A stretch of 21,155 nt of DNA from Plicaturopsis crispa FD-325 SS-3 (Eukaryota; Basidiomycota; Agaricomycetes; Amylocorticiales; Amylocorticiaceae): assembly GCA_000827205.1 (NCBI GenBank), contig KN832590.1, positions 18,592 through 39,746 on the forward strand. Direction: 5' to 3'. Of the stretch, positions 584 to 6,151 are shown one piece after another. How positions within the stretch are numbered: the stretch's first letter is position 1; each line of letters opens with the position of its first letter. Made by a program: the position numbers and the translations under genes. The notes below the pieces were generated by a model. The model did not search any database. It was not told where the DNA came from and was given only the letters and a program-made list of their open reading frames with translations.

Positions 584-597
584 GTTGCAAGCATTGA
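584..597. repeat. LINE target-site duplication, left copy
   Basis: GTTGCAAGCATTGA here matches GTTAGCAAGCATTGA at 5298-5312, directly after the poly(A) tract, with one inserted A. A 14-15 bp duplication of variable length is what target-primed reverse transcription produces. It fixes the left end of the retrotransposon at about 598. Confidence 0.85.
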
Positions 598-870
598 GAC
601 TCCAAGACAAGAATCCTAAAAGCGCAGCTCAAGGCTACACTCAACGACAGCAACCTAGACTCAGACGAGAAGTTAATCACAGCTGACCACATAGCAGAGA
701 AATTGAAATCCCTGGAACAGGGGCGCCACCTATCCATCCGCGACAGCATTGCCGCGAAAGCGAGACTAGAAAATGAGACCGCGGCGCTAGCAGCAAATCA
801 TGGACAAGCATGGGGAAATTAAAAAAGCCCAGAGACACCATACAAGAATTACATATCCGGGTACAAACCC
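598..870 (+). pseudogene. LINE ORF2 remnant: endonuclease-RT linker, frameshifted
   Basis: Frame 1 (598-822) reads a helical, charged segment containing HIAEKLKSLEQGRH and AAKARLENET. Near 797 the sensible reading moves to frame 3 (SWTSMGKLKKPRDTIQEL), and near 852 to frame 2 (YPGTNP). From memory, AAKARLEGET, KKPRD and PGTNPPxYETRSDKM occur in this order in the linker before the reverse transcriptase of Agaricomycete LINEs, so this is one decayed coding stretch with two small indels, not an ORF1. It is interrupted at 870/871 by DNA transposon 1. With 871-1535 removed, frame 2 here joins the long frame at 1536 without a shift. The endonuclease domain itself is missing. Confidence 0.75.
863..870. 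repeat. Target-site duplication of DNA transposon 1, left copy
   Basis: ACAAACCC, repeated exactly at 1528-1535 on the far side of the insertion. The surrounding codons read PGTN before the element and continue PPAYETRS after it. Confidence 0.85.
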
Positions 871-1527
871 AGGACCCCCGACAATCGCCTCAGATGTCTG
901 TTCTGAGGTCCGCGTCTGCCATCCGGAAGCCCATTTTCGCGCCGGACGCCTACGGCGTCCGGATTTCTTCCCATACTTGACCTCAGGACCCTCTGACGTC
1001 CGGACTAGCGACATATACATCGAAAAAATCGAAAAAAAATACCAGAAAATACGAATTTTTTCTACGGGCTCAAAATAAGCAAGGCAGGTCATATGTGTGT
1101 GTTGAATGTCTTTGACTTGATTTGCAAGAGCCCTGGCGTAAGGGAGGAGGCCCGGGGAGGGTGGATCACTACCCTCGGAGCGTCGGTCGCTTTTTTGATA
1201 CAGATTCGCGCACAATGAAAGCGCCGCCGCTTTTACCGTGGAGAAACCATCTGAAAAAGCCGTCGAAACTGCCTTGTTTGGTGCACTTTGGGTACTGAAT
1301 TTTTCTTTCCGTCAGGATCCCGGCCAGGTGGCAGGTGGAGGTCGGAGGCCTCGACGTCCGGACTTGCACACACCCCTTGTCACCACCCCCTGCCGCCCGG
1401 AAAATGCCCCAGACATCGGGCCAAAATTTGGCCTTCTGACATCCGGATTCGCACAGGGCTCCGGCGCTACGCGCCGTCTGACATCCGGACTGGCGCACAG
1501 GGATATGGGTCGATTGTCAGGGGTCCT
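871..1527. mobile_element. Non-autonomous DNA transposon 1, inserted in LINE ORF2
   Basis: The ends are 17-bp terminal inverted repeats (871-887 and 1511-1527) with one mismatch. The left begins AGGACCCCCGACAATCG; the right end read on the minus strand is AGGACCCCTGACAATCG. An identical 8-bp ACAAACCC flanks both sides (863-870 and 1528-1535). The 657-bp body is GC-rich, has no credible gene, and carries repeated TCTGACRTCCGGAYT-like motifs. An 8-bp duplication fits the hAT superfamily, but the TIR start is not the usual hAT YARNG, and a 9-bp reading (TACAAACCC) would fit Mutator-like elements, so the superfamily stays open. Excision in silico restores the LINE reading frame, which independently supports the borders. 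Confidence 0.88.
951..1500. repeat. Dispersed TCCGGA motifs within DNA transposon 1
   Basis: Variants of TCTGACRTCCGGAYT occur near 991 (TCTGACGTCCGGACT), 1352 (CGACGTCCGGACTTGCACA), 1437 (TCTGACATCCGGATTCGCACA) and 1480 (TCTGACATCCGGACTGGCGCACA), with partial copies near 915 and 955. The core GTCCGGAC is palindromic. Clustered motifs near the ends of non-autonomous elements often serve as transposase binding sites; here that role is inference. Confidence 0.65.
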
Positions 1528-4500
1528 ACAAACCCTCCGGCATACGAAACACGGTCCGACAAAATGGCGGAAATCGGGAGGAACCACAACGCAAACATTC
1601 AAGATGAGGGACGAACCCCATATGCAGAACGCGTAGAGACCATACGAGAGGTCCTTGCTCAGGTAGAAGTCAAACTCTCGGAAGACGACCATGCGAAGTT
1701 GGCGCAATGCCTCACAATTGAGGAAATTGAGACAGTACTCAAGGGCCTTCCAAATGCTAAAGCAGCAGGTATTAATGGCCTACCATACGAAATCTGGAAA
1801 ATACTCCATGAGCGCGAGTCGAAACGCCCGGAAGACGGGAAGAAGTTCAACGTACTTGAGACCCTTAGAGCCGTATACAACGACATTGAGAAGCACGGTA
1901 TAGTGCAAGGAACAGACTTTGCGGAAGGCTGGCTCTGCCCGCTTTACAAGAAAAAAGACAAACGAGAGATAGCAAACTACCGACCAATAACGCTGCTAAA
2001 CGGCGACTATAAGATATTCACGAAAGCATTGGCAATCCGCCTAGCAGAAACCGCACCGTCAGTGATACACGAGAACCAAGCTGGCTTCGTCCCTGGCCGC
2101 AGCATAACAGAACAAGTAAGGCTTACACAAATGATACTAAACTTTGCAGAAGCAGAGGAAATAGGAGGTGCTATTGTGGCGCTTGACCAAGAGAAAGCCT
2201 ATGACAAGATAATGCACGATTACCTGTGGGACACCCTGAGAAAATACAACTTCCCGGAACACATGATAAACACGGTCAAATCACTATATGAGAACGCAGA
2301 AACCTCAGTGATCATAAATGGGGAAATAAGCTCAAAATACAAGGTAACCCGAGGAGTGCGTCAAGGAGACCCACTCTCGTGCCTACTGTTCGACATAGCA
2401 ATCGAACCACTCGCAGAACTGCTCCGGAAATCAGAGCTAAAAGGTATGCAAGGACCAGGGCTAGCTCACAGAACAGTGGTCACTCTATTTGCAGACGACA
2501 CAACAGTATATTTGAACTCGGATGATGACTTTCAAACTCTACAAAGCATACTAGACAAATGGTGTATAGCGTCAGGCGCAAAATTTAACACAACTAAGAC
2601 TGAAGTCATACCAATTGGCTCAAAACTGTACCGCGAAAACCTACAGACAACACGTCTGCTGTCCCCAAACCACCCCCCGATACCGGAGTCCATCAATATT
2701 GCAAGCGATGGCGTAGCAACGAGGATCCTCGGAGCCTGGATAGGCAACGAAACCAACGAGGAAGGTGTCTGGTCAACAGCTTTAGAGAAGATTGCAGCCA
2801 GCTTAGAGCGTTGGGAAAGCACTAACCCAACAGTAGAAGGACGTAAAATCATTCTGCAGTTCACTGTGGCAGGAATATCCCAGTACCTGACAGTGGTCCA
2901 AGGAATGCCAAGCGAAATTGAGAACAGGATCCTAAAGATTAGCCACTCCTTCATATGGGACAATGCAGGGAAAAGCACCATTAATAAAGAAACACTACAC
3001 GCCCCCGTCGAAAACGGAGGAAAGAAACTGATTAACATACAAGCGAGGAACGAAGCAATAGAACTTAACTGGTTAAAGGGGTACCTCGCGGAAGGAGAAC
3101 ACCGACCCCAATGGGCCTTTTTTGCTGACGCACTGATTGCACGGTGCGCAAGCACTACACCGCTGGTAGACAACGAAGCACGCATCAGCATCTTCTCACA
3201 AACTTGGAAACCAACGATGAGGAACCTACCTATAGGCCTCAGGCGAATGATCAAAGTGGCACGCAAGTATAAAGTACGTGTCGAAACCATTGAGCCGTCC
3301 GAAGAACTGCAAAAGGGTCTCCCAATATGGCTTCACATCGGAGCCTCGAAAGACATGAAAAAACTAAATAATCACAAACACGCCCGCTGCCTGAGGCAAA
3401 ACCATAAGATATCCACGACAGGAGAGCTGAAGGAGCTAACCGTGCGAAACAATGCTGACCATAAGCCAAGACGTAACTGTCGATGCCACTTTTGCAAACA
3501 CGATCGGAACGAGCTCGGATGCGATAACCCTCACAAGTGCCGCCAGTTTGCGGTGAAGTTCCTAAACAACCTAACGGACAAATGGAACCCAAGCCTACCA
3601 AAAAACAGACAAGTTAGCAACCTAACCGATGCCCAACTCGAAGGAAACAGGACAGCACTGGAGCAGAAAGAGAAACTTACTTTTGACCCGGACATGGCCA
3701 GGGAACTGGGACTCTCGGACAGTTTCAGGGTGTTCACGGAGGACCACGAACAGAACGAGAGAGCTATACAAACAGCCCAAGATGATCAGCCAGTAAATGA
3801 AGAGGCAACGAGGGTAACAACTCACGGAATAGTCAAGATAGACGAACACGGCGACTTTGTTGCTGGGGGTGGCGCATACTTCGCCCAAAATGATGCCCGG
3901 AACGTTTCCACCAGAATCGGACCGACAATTGCGTCTGCTCAAGGAGGTGAACTAGGCGCTATACTCTTGGTGCTACAGAAAACACCGAAGAACCGACCGT
4001 TAGAACTTGAAATAAGATCCAAGAACATCCTGAAAAATCTCACAACCGAGAAACAGGACCTGGAAGACAGCGACTTCCTAAACAGCAAAGACCGCAGCCT
4101 CCTGAAAGCGATATTAGCAAATCTACGAGAGAGAGGGACGAGCACATACCTAATCCAATCGAAACCAGGCACTAGAGCATCAGGAGCCAAAACCCTCGCT
4201 GAAAAAGGGTTACAGAAAGAAGCCCACGACCACATAGACACAACGACAAAAGCGAGCTTCACACTCACAGGCGTGAAACTCAACACCGGATCACAAGCAC
4301 TCTTCTACAAAGGAATCATGAGTACACAGATCCCACAAATAAGACGGACTACACTTACAAACCTGGACAAAACGCGACATGCAATGCGGAGCCTGAACGG
4401 CAAGACGCCGAACGATGTTCAAATCTGGCACTCAGTCAGGAATAAAGATATATACCGAACGACCCGCGGATTCCTATGGAAGAGTCTGCACGACGCGTAT

Positions 4501-5130
4501 AAGATAGGAGAATTCTGGTCAAGAATGTCAGACCCCAAATATGCACACAGGGCAAAGTGTGACCTGTGCGGCGAAGAAGAAACGATGGAGCACATACTAC
4601 TGGAGTGCGAATCTTCTCCGGTCAACAAGATTGTATGGTCACAAGCCGAAGAGCTGTGGAGAAAGCGAGAAAAAGATTGGCCGACGATATCGTACGGTCT
4701 AATCCTAGGATGTGGACTTGTCAGACTGAACAATGCGAGAACCAAGAAAGACGAGGGCAGAAGCCGATTACTGACTATAATAATATCTGAGGCAGCGCAC
4801 CTCATATGGAAAATCCGTTGTGAACGGGTGATCCAACGTGAAAGCCTAGAATCTGCAAGACACACGGAGGACGAGATATTGAAGAAGTGGATCTTCAGCA
4901 TAAACTACAGACTGAAGATGGACATACTACTCACCAACAGGTTCAAATTCGACACCCGAGCCACCAAGAAGGAAGCAGTGGTACTCCGGACATGGAGTGG
5001 TACTTTATTAGACGAAGAAAACCTGCCCGATGATTGGATCGGTCAGTCAGGAGTTTTAGTGGGTACGACCCCTCGTCAGCGCCGTCCCCCCGGACGGATT
5101 AGGCAGCATGCTGCCGGACGAGGAAGTTGA
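1528..5130 (+). CDS. LINE ORF2: reverse transcriptase, RNase H-like, zinc knuckle
   Basis: A continuous frame runs to TGA at 5128-5130. The frame is also open back to 1288, but everything before 1528 is DNA transposon 1. The first in-frame ATG inside LINE sequence is 1564, giving about 1,188 residues. Reverse transcriptase motifs appear in order: YRPITLLNGDYKIFTK, NQAGFVPGRS, LDQEKAYDK, RGVRQGDPLS and the catalytic LFADD (F at 2488-2490, DD at 2494-2499). An RNase H-like segment follows (about 3826-4230) that keeps the GGELGAILL glutamate, but where SDSK is usual it reads IRSK, so the active site looks incomplete. A zinc knuckle C-x2-C-x7-H-x4-C lies at 4558-4608. The protein would copy element RNA at a nicked target, but lacks its endonuclease part. 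Confidence 0.88.
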   Translation, partial: TNPPAYETRSDKMAEIGRNHNANIQDEGRTPYAERVETIREVLAQVEVKLSEDDHAKLAQCLTIEEIETVLKGLPNAKAAGINGLPYEIWKILHERESKRPEDGKKFNVLETLRAVYNDIEKHGIVQGTDFAEGWLCPLYKKKDKREIANYRPITLLNGDYKIFTKALAIRLAETAPSVIHENQAGFVPGRSITEQVRLTQMILNFAEAEEIGGAIVALDQEKAYDKIMHDYLWDTLRKYNFPEHMINTVKSLYENAETSVIINGEISSKYKVTRGVRQGDPLSCLLFDIAIEPLAELLRKSELKGMQGPGLAHRTVVTLFADDTTVYLNSDDDFQTLQSILDKWCIASGAKFNTTKTEVIPIGSKLYRENLQTTRLLSPNHPPIPESINIASDGVATRILGAWIGNETNEEGVWSTALEKIAASLERWESTNPTVEGRKIILQFTVAGISQYLTVVQGMPSEIENRILKISHSFIWDNAGKSTINKETLHAPVENGGKKLINIQARNEAIELNWLKGYLAEGEHRPQWAFFADALIARCASTTPLVDNEARISIFSQTWKPTMRNLPIGLRRMIKVARKYKVRVETIEPSEELQKGLPIWLHIGASKDMKKLNNHKHARCLRQNHKISTTGELKELTVRNNADHKPRRNCRCHFCKHDRNELGCDNPHKCRQFAVKFLNNLTDKWNPSLPKNRQVSNLTDAQLEGNRTALEQKEKLTFDPDMARELGLSDSFRVFTEDHEQNERAIQTAQDDQPVNEEATRVTTHGIVKIDEHGDFVAGGGAYFAQNDARNVSTRIGPTIASAQGGELGAILLVLQKTPKNRPLELEIRSKNILKNLTTEKQDLEDSDFLNSKDRSLLKAILANLRERGTSTYLIQSKPGTRASGAKTLAEKGLQKEAHDHIDTTTKASFTLTGVKLNTGSQALFYKGIMSTQIPQIRRTTLTNLDKTRHAMRSLNGKTPNDVQIWHSVRNKDIYRTTRGFLWKSLHDAYKIGEFWSRMSDPKYAHRAKCDLCGEEETMEHILLECESSPVNKIVWSQAEELWRKREKDWPTISYGLILGCGLVRLNNARTKKDEGRSRLLTIIISEAAHLIWKIRCERVIQRESLESARHTEDEILKKWIFSINYRLKMDILLTNRFKFDTRATKKEAVVLRTWSGTLLDEENLPDDWIGQSGVLVGTTPRQRRPPGRIRQHAAGRGS

Positions 5131-5152
5131 GCCCCACACTGCCCTTCAGGGC
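5082..5152 (+). other. Potential hairpins at the LINE 3' end
   Basis: Three short foldable segments cluster around the ORF2 stop codon: CCGTCC-CCCC-GGACGG (5082-5097), the 14-bp perfect palindrome GGCAGCATGCTGCC (5102-5115), and GCCC-TTCA-GGGC (5141-5152) in the 3' UTR. Many LINEs use a 3' RNA structure for recognition by their own reverse transcriptase. The base pairing is visible; the role is inference. Confidence 0.45.
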
Positions 5153-5272
5153 GTGCATTTGTGCATTTCTTCCTGGGTCCCACAAGGTTACACAGGTGAA
5201 ATATCCTACACAACCAGCGCGACGAAGAGAGTCCGACTACGTCGACTGCTCGAGTCTTGATTCGCTCCAACC

Positions 5273-5297
5273 AAAAAAAAAAAAAAAAAAAAAAAAA
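5273..5297 (+). other. LINE poly(A) tail
   Basis: Twenty-five consecutive A residues directly precede the right copy of the target-site duplication (5298-5312), marking the 3' end of the inserted cDNA. Confidence 0.92.
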
Positions 5298-5312
5298 GTT
5301 AGCAAGCATTGA
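5298..5312. repeat. LINE target-site duplication, right copy
   Basis: GTTAGCAAGCATTGA, the partner of 584-597, differing by one inserted base. Confidence 0.85.
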
Positions 5313-5497: not shown

Positions 5498-6010
5498 TTA
5501 ATGTCGGGCACACAACGGTTCGAATATCCAAACAACATTCCTTCTTCGGACATTCATATCGCGTATCAAAAAAACGGTGGTGTACGTCGGCTTGGCTTCT
5601 TGGCTTCTTGTTACGACTTCTTCGTCCGCATCCAACAAATCCTGAAGCTCTTCTGCCGCGTTCTCGTCGTCGTCGGAATCATCACAATCGTCCCAGTTCT
5701 CCTCAATCTTGGATTCCGAGTCATCGTCGTTATTGGGGTCTGCGCTAAGACCGGGCATTCCCGATGCCGTGGGTTGAGGACGTTGTGAGTGATCCAAGAC
5801 AGGGTCCTCTCCGGCACGGAACCATGAGCTAACACTAGGCAACGGCGCCTCGTGCTCTTCAGGACCCATAAAGTCGGAAGTCGACACACCTAGCAGATTG
5901 AAGAGACCCTCCGCCTCCTCCCATGCTTGTTTCATGGCCGTCTCGATTTCGGAGTCCGTTGAAAGCTGGCTAGTTTTGCGAGATTTACGCCTTCCGAATC
6001 GACATATGTA
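5498..6010 (-). pseudogene. Acidic ORF, unrecognised; probable gene fragment
   Basis: On the minus strand a frame is open from about 6010 to the stop at 5498; the first ATG is at 5935, giving 145 residues. Before the ATG the same frame gives a basic stretch (FGRRKSRKTSQLSTDSEIE) that continues into TAMKQAWEEAEGLFNLLGV, so the real start is probably upstream or in another exon. The middle is strongly acidic (DDSDDDENAAEELQDLLDADEE). No domain is recognised. It lies 140 bp downstream of the 383-residue gene on the same strand, and could be the 3' part of a longer version of that gene or a separate fragment. I favour a fragment because the intervening sequence (6011-6151) has no clean splice path. 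Confidence 0.4.
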
Positions 6011-6151
6011 TGGGCATAACCAGATGCACGCGCCTTGGGGTCACCGGAATAGCGACCAAGTTTGACTGCTGCTCGAGCTCGAAGCAGGATGTGTATCCTG
6101 GGCCTCATGTACAGAAAATCCAGGTACGAGCAACAATTCTGCTCAGTTGGG

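Follow-up and report, generated by a model that had tools for sequence, protein, structure and literature searches.

The stretch of DNA analysed here, hereafter the window, comprises 21,155 nucleotides of the basidiomycete Plicaturopsis crispa FD-325 SS-3 (contig KN832590.1, here C37, positions 18,592 to 39,746 of the forward strand; C37:18592-39746). It carries a 5'-truncated long interspersed nuclear element (LINE) on the plus strand (598..5297), and nested within this LINE, at 871..1527 on the same strand, lies a 657-bp non-coding transposon with terminal inverted repeats (TIRs), the subject of the present analysis. Genome searches covered an assembly of 33.2 Mb in 49 contigs.

The left TIR of the nested element, AGGACCCCCGACAATCG (17 bp; 871..887, plus strand), and the right TIR, whose reverse complement is AGGACCCCTGACAATCG (1511..1527, minus strand), agree at 16 of 17 positions; both were found by direct matching, and an inverted-repeat program reported no pair at this place. 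Directly outside them stand the two copies of an 8-bp target-site duplication (TSD), ACAAACCC, at 863..870 and 1528..1535, which, of the lengths from 6 to 10 tried, match at 8 alone. A previous sequence-only reading of the window had proposed a 657-bp nested element with exactly these TIRs and this duplication, and direct reading bears it out; the borders it gave also hold, since relatives with the same ends stop at the same base at other loci, within other TSDs. No Pfam family was matched among the open reading frames (ORFs) of the element that were scanned. For the window, nine ORFs gave no Pfam match at E <= 0.01 and a tRNA scan returned none. The long ORF at 1288-5130 is the LINE frame kept open through the right part of the insert.

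The host LINE is delimited by the onset of homology at 598, by a run of 25 A residues at 5273-5297, and by its own 11-bp TSD, GCAAGCATTGA, which stands at 587..597 and 5302..5312. Its downstream frame is open from 1528 to 5130 and carries the reverse transcriptase domain (Pfam RVT_1, E 7.3e-37). A genome search with the LINE protein returned nine matches: the window itself, three relatives that cover the insertion site, and five that fall short of it. All three site-covering relatives (57-59% identity) run uninterrupted across the site, for example as ...ALKVPGSSPARYESRSE..., to be compared with the ...PGTNPPAYETRSDKM... formed by the window's flanks once joined, so that none carries the segment as a normal part of the LINE. 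At the DNA level, a 635-nt query spanning the site matched the window's own LINE copy and no other in the genome. The sequence-only reading had also held that excision joins frame 2 upstream to frame 1 downstream; this stands for a few codons at the junction and no further, because LINE homology upstream of the insert shifts from frame 1 (598-780, in two of the three relatives) to frame 3 (792-857, in all three), with frame 2 confined to the last few codons directly before the insert. The LINE copy was thus already damaged, through 5' truncation and through frameshifts ahead of the insert. Taken alone, the insertion is ordinary: one non-coding element in a truncated LINE copy.

Relatives with shared ends and conserved motif arrays

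In genome searches, the left 190 bp of the window element match themselves alone; for the right ~185 bp, at least seven other places match parts of it at 70-77% identity, a count that is a lower bound because the search scores its best candidates only. A genome scan with the TIR pattern yielded 28 matches against one in the reversed control, and from these we recovered two subfamilies with paired ends. Subfamily B (487-488 bp) comprises three such copies (C1:2073212, C41:18933 and C1:274190), and subfamily C (414-416 bp) comprises five (C22:269005, C3:388191, C1:1128350, C2:219426 and C3:2226994). B copies are 93-99% identical among themselves, C copies 94-98%, and B and C are 76-78% identical to each other. 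All eight paired relatives carry perfect, mutually different 8-bp duplications, and when lengths from 6 to 10 are tried, the window, B and C elements match at exactly 8 bp in nine of nine cases. The check that the sequence-only reading had put forward, relatives with the same ends and differing 8-bp duplications, therefore came out in its favour. Its claim of a family holds for these relatives with common ends and not for the window's own subfamily, of which one copy was found; family status consequently rests on the end-sharing relatives. The B and C copies at C1:2073-2075k and C22 adjoin partial duplications that are 100% identical and bounded by N runs, most likely assembly artefacts.

A looser TIR scan gave 91 matches against 56 in the control, so these are mostly chance, and among them we recognized a sister family, D (n = 4; 339-348 bp), with ends AGGACCCCGGACAATGCC or one letter off and perfect 8-bp duplications in all four copies. 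Together with a coding element described below, the compiled set reaches 14 elements (window 1, B 3, C 5, D 4, coding 1), and every one has a perfect 8-bp TSD different from all the others. Several further candidates were set aside. The 2,397-bp end pair at C18:487723-490119, bounded by AGGACCCCCTACA, has flanks that are inverted rather than direct and an N run inside, and reads as a palindrome. The AGGACCCCTGACACCC sites (three on C3, one on C18) have a common outside flank and belong to another repeat, which the AAGACCCCTGACACC sites on C14, C38 and C24 resemble. The AGGACCCCGGACA sites at C1:2013279 and C9:1064152 continue unlike family D, and at C5:954871 and C1:3475357 one end only was seen.

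The sequence-only reading had pointed to distinctive TCCGGA motifs, and the count agrees with it: the window element has six motifs of this type, all of the form NRTCCGGA, whereas 2,000 first-order Markov simulations averaged 0.23 and never exceeded three, the motif having been picked after the sequence had been seen. All six lie on the plus strand, in sub-terminal arrays whose positions recur in the full-length relatives. On the left, CATCCGGA at element position 50 (920..927) is also found at position 50 in all three B copies, C having CACCCGAA; CGTCCGGA at position 86 (956..963) recurs at 86 in all eight B and C copies; and CGTCCGGA at position 127 (997..1004) has its counterpart at 126 in all five C copies, B having TATCCGGA at 126. 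On the right, the motifs are CGTCCGGA at 166 bp from the end (1355..1362), CATCCGGA at 81 bp (1440..1447) and CATCCGGA at 39 bp (1482..1489), with equivalents at 165-166, 80 and 38 bp, respectively, in eight of eight B and C copies. The complete B array stands at 50 and 86 from the left and at 166, 126, 80 and 38 bp from the right end, and that of C at 86 and 126 from the left and at 165, 126, 80 and 38 bp from the right. Distances in the window element, B and C agree within 1-2 bp, with a spacing of mostly 34-46 bp; the window copy is without one site, which leaves an 85-bp gap.

The core of the motif differs between subfamilies, being TCCGGA in 6/6 window motifs and 17/18 B motifs, and TCCGAA in 30/30 C motifs. 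When the B and C majorities are compared, this G-to-A change affects six of seven aligned motif copies and six of the 76 G columns elsewhere (Fisher P 1.6e-5), and the seventh copy, off by one alignment column, is by eye also TCCGAA. As the C copies have a common ancestor, the motif change counts as one set of changes, not five. For the concerted change in C, the best explanation is that selection kept the motifs matched to a transposase as its binding preference shifted; alternatively, the C ancestor may have had a separate origin, in a coding element with TCCGAA already in place. The pattern suggests drifting transposase binding sites.

A search with a pattern of three TCCGRA motifs gave 90 matches against 10 in the control, TCCGGA-only sites being counted on both strands, and led to two further families. 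Family F was located at eight places by the motif pattern, and the four copies fetched (C1, C4, C12 and C13) have ends AGGACCTATGAYAGTCCC; its forms include one of 654 bp with TGTCCGGACAAA arrays and one of 2,015 bp on C13 with the TSD AATAGAGT. Family G occupies five places, and both copies fetched (C7 and C14) have the AGGACC end AGGACCCATGATTATAGG and TTGTCCGGA arrays; no second end was found in the stretches fetched for these two copies.

A coding sister element and the probable source of mobility

The coding element lies at C17:296728-303637 (6,910 bp), opens with a D-type end, and has TIRs matching at 17 of 18 positions and the 8-bp TSD TCTATGTC. Its outer 60-106 bp are 81-89% identical to the D copies. 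Relative to this element, family D shows every feature of a miniature inverted-repeat transposable element (MITE): short length, no coding capacity, TIRs, TSDs and homologous ends. The window subfamily shows the same features apart from homologous ends in a coding element, no coding partner of its own having been found in the TIR scans. Family D and the coding element share TTGTCCG (or CGGACAA) as their recurring word. The coding element has it at left-hand positions 8, 40, 83 and 128 and at distances of ~171, 132 and 93 bp from its right end, the arrays at both ends being on the same strand; two more copies lie inside.

The ORFs of the coding element were read as open frames in unspliced sequence. 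A 989-codon frame matches Ulp1 (Peptidase_C48; E 4.5e-7, above the Pfam cut-off), and an 88-codon frame gives a sub-threshold match to the helix-turn-helix (HTH) model Tnp_P_element (PF12017). The last ORF, transposase-like and of 487 codons, was matched by no Pfam model over the first 444 codons scanned; a D...D...E-like spacing and an RNase-H-like region can be read in it by eye only. Pfam searches of the coding element gave no hAT, Mutator or KDZ (Kyakuja-Dileera-Zisupton) match, and no THAP match was obtained in 981 aa scanned (E <= 1). The choice between hAT and Mutator-like, to which the sequence-only reading had narrowed the question, accordingly finds no support: the sister coding copy matches neither, and has the Ulp1 match and the sub-threshold P-element HTH instead. 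Protein homologues of the coding element occur on C19, C46 and C24 and, more distantly, on C2. The C19 homologue has a similar order (Ulp1, middle region, last ORF); in the 8.8 kb around it, one end of which is N, no TIR/TSD pair was found (exact 8-bp TSD, up to two mismatches in 10 bp, length 2-9 kb). A divergent KDZ ORF at C17:306041, 9 kb from the C17 end, looked at first like the partner and was rejected because the coding element's right end, marked by the second copy of its TSD, comes before it. Among the KDZ transposase matches in the genome, nine are free of stops over ~200 of the 217 profile positions, and the one at C37:13253-13948 lies ~4.6 kb upstream of the window.

Within the window itself, at 5618..6129 on the minus strand, we found a decayed C-terminal piece of the same kind of protein as the last ORF of the coding element (tblastn, 52% over 56 aa and 30% over 115 aa, E 1e-14). 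This relic sits ~300 bp from the 3' end of the LINE, whose insertion may have hit an older element of the coding element's group or the DNA next to one.

The TSDs of the 14 compiled elements also point to a target preference. Among their 28 half-sites, G1/C8 is found in 20 (binomial P 9e-7), C3/G6 in 12 (P 0.04), and T2/A7, the hAT signature nTnnnnAn, in 10 (P 0.06, or 0.10 after background correction); the values 9e-7, 0.04 and 0.10 use a background corrected for N runs.

Building on the observed borders, TSDs, relatives, coding sister element and motif positions, we consider it probable that these elements constitute one cut-and-paste group, the AGGACC group, characterized by ends beginning AGGACC, 8-bp TSDs, and TCCG-containing motif arrays inside both ends. 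With comparable confidence, we take the window insert to be a non-autonomous member of this group, mobilised by the C17-type or a closely related transposase; mobilisation in trans is what we infer from the common ends, the length of the duplication and the arrangement of the motifs. The window element would hold only what a transposase needs, namely its ends and the putative binding sites inside them. A transposase encoded at another place in the genome would recognise the inner motifs, bring the two ends together and cleave them, possibly by P-like chemistry, and insertion would take place at staggered cuts 8 bp apart, preferably in targets with G as the first and C as the last base, loosely RGTCnnGACY. 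The transposase would most likely be of the C17:296728-303637 type, with its Ulp1 protease region, weak P-element HTH and, by eye, RNase-H-like region; alternatively, a close relative of it, tuned to the motif of the window subfamily and not found here, may be responsible.

Several observations weigh against this interpretation. The 14 compiled elements were picked because both ends could be paired, and for two further relatives, at C12:78573 and C1:3882952, one end only was seen; perfect TSDs are present in two of the four fetched copies of family F; and the genome TIR scans returned no coding copy with the window element's own ends. In the coding element, the right-end motif distances (93, 132 and 171 bp) differ from those at the left end. 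The HTH match (E 6e-4, 20.5 bits) falls below the 23-bit cut-off, in a Pfam scan that also returned chance-like matches at E 0.008-0.2. A genome search with the P-element HTH model reached E 0.02, and one of 14 control genomes, a bacterium, matched as well, below the cut-off; the HTH regions of four homologues gave E 0.17 in one case and no match in three. Pfam includes models for the RNase-H core with a GTP-binding insertion, and at E <= 1 the coding element, with the last ORF scanned over its first 444 of 487 codons, had no RNase-H, GTP-binding or THAP match; PDB searches likewise gave no match at E <= 1 or <= 10. The target preference, finally, also resembles that of hobo, GTNCGNAC (in the part of PMC3276498 available). 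As read from sequence, the link of the group to P elements is a weak one.

The rival accounts differ in which transposase they hold responsible. We judge it unlikely that the window element belongs to hAT as a non-autonomous member and owes its 8-bp TSD to one of the hAT transposases encoded in the genome. The genome has 13 hAT dimerisation-domain matches, 8-bp TSDs are usual for the superfamily (PMC12730594, in the portion accessible), the hobo target motif is similar as noted above, and at C14:16248 a one-mismatch end, AAGACCCCTGACA, faces a hAT match 1.5 kb off (C14:17780). By coordinate comparison, however, the 28 TIR matches form no pair that encloses one of the 13 hAT matches; the C14 site, for which no second end was sought, continues unlike the window's ends and resembles another repeat with ACCCCTGACACC; the T2/A7 signature reaches 10/28 half-sites (P 0.06-0.10); and the coding copy of family D has no hAT dimerisation-domain match. 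Known hAT ends also begin with CA and have G at position 5. Mobilisation of the group by a KDZ transposase of Zisupton or Dileera type appears less probable still. It draws on the 43 KDZ transposase matches in the genome, on the 8-bp TSDs that Zisupton and Dileera produce (PMC12730594, same portion), and on one-mismatch ends AAGACCCCTGACA, which on C38 and C24 lie at distances of 2.6 and 3.3 kb to KDZ matches. Yet these two sites point away from the KDZ matches and continue unlike the window's ends, and the complete coding sister element is without a KDZ (PF18758) match, the KDZ ORF at C17:306041 lying outside its ends.

A Mutator-like element, with 9-bp duplications and long TIRs, we regard as highly improbable. 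Ulp1 proteases do occur in some Mutator-like elements, but the nine window, B and C elements duplicate exactly 8 bp, not 9, and the coding sister has no Mutator Pfam match. The view that no transposon is involved, the segment being normal to the LINE or a chance arrangement, retains a negligible probability: the exact sequence was found in one copy only, but the three site-covering LINE relatives are without it, and relatives with the same ends occur at other loci with other TSDs.

Beyond membership of the window insert in the AGGACC group, we raise, tentatively and as the less likely case, that the elements with AGGACC ends and 8-bp TSDs represent an undescribed fungal transposon superfamily, marked by fusion to an Ulp1 (SUMO-protease-type) region and by sub-terminal arrays on the same strand, in which the motif dialects TCCGGA, TCCGAA and TTGTCCG track separate transposase lineages. 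In the literature searched we recognized no description of these ends or of a fungal P-like/Ulp1 element, Repbase lying outside that search, so that a prior entry there is possible. If the reading of the AGGACC group given above holds, one genome has a set of short elements next to a coding relative, with three dialects of the motif; transposase/binding-site co-evolution could then be tested directly by binding assays, and P-like transposons, or something new beside them, would extend to a fungus, with a protease region and without THAP.

Comparison with known transposon systems

Among known systems, the P-element superfamily (Drosophila P and the zebrafish THAP9 element) is similar in its 8-bp TSDs, TIRs, sub-terminal sites and internally deleted non-autonomous copies, as described in the sections available of PMC7776569, a likeness to which the sub-threshold HTH match of the coding element may add. 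The 8-bp TSD is not exclusive: element 1360 of the P group makes 7 bp (PMC3276498, available part). The target preference is partly alike: comparison with the Drosophila P motif, GTCCGGAC, and the hobo motif, GTNCGNAC (both from the same part of PMC3276498), favours P over hAT only mildly. The differences are that the coding element shows an Ulp1 protease region in place of a THAP match, is 6.9 kb long with ends starting AGGACC, has same-strand motif arrays at both ends, and ends in an ORF that no Pfam model matched over the scanned 444 of 487 codons. THAP domains are restricted to animals according to the same sections of PMC7776569.

KDZ elements, abundant in this genome, share 8-bp TSDs in Zisupton and Dileera (PMC12730594, as above) and differ in that the coding sister element has no KDZ match. 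With hAT elements (hobo, Ac), the group has the 8-bp TSD and short TIRs in common; the T2/A7 preference is weak and the coding sister is without a hAT match. The end sequences of hobo and Ac also differ from AGGACC-group ends. A further parallel is offered by the P elements of Anopheles gambiae and their MITE relatives, in which MITEs likewise stand beside a P-element family; that host is an animal, and the likeness is one of description, as given in the title and abstract of PMC1562414, not of sequence.

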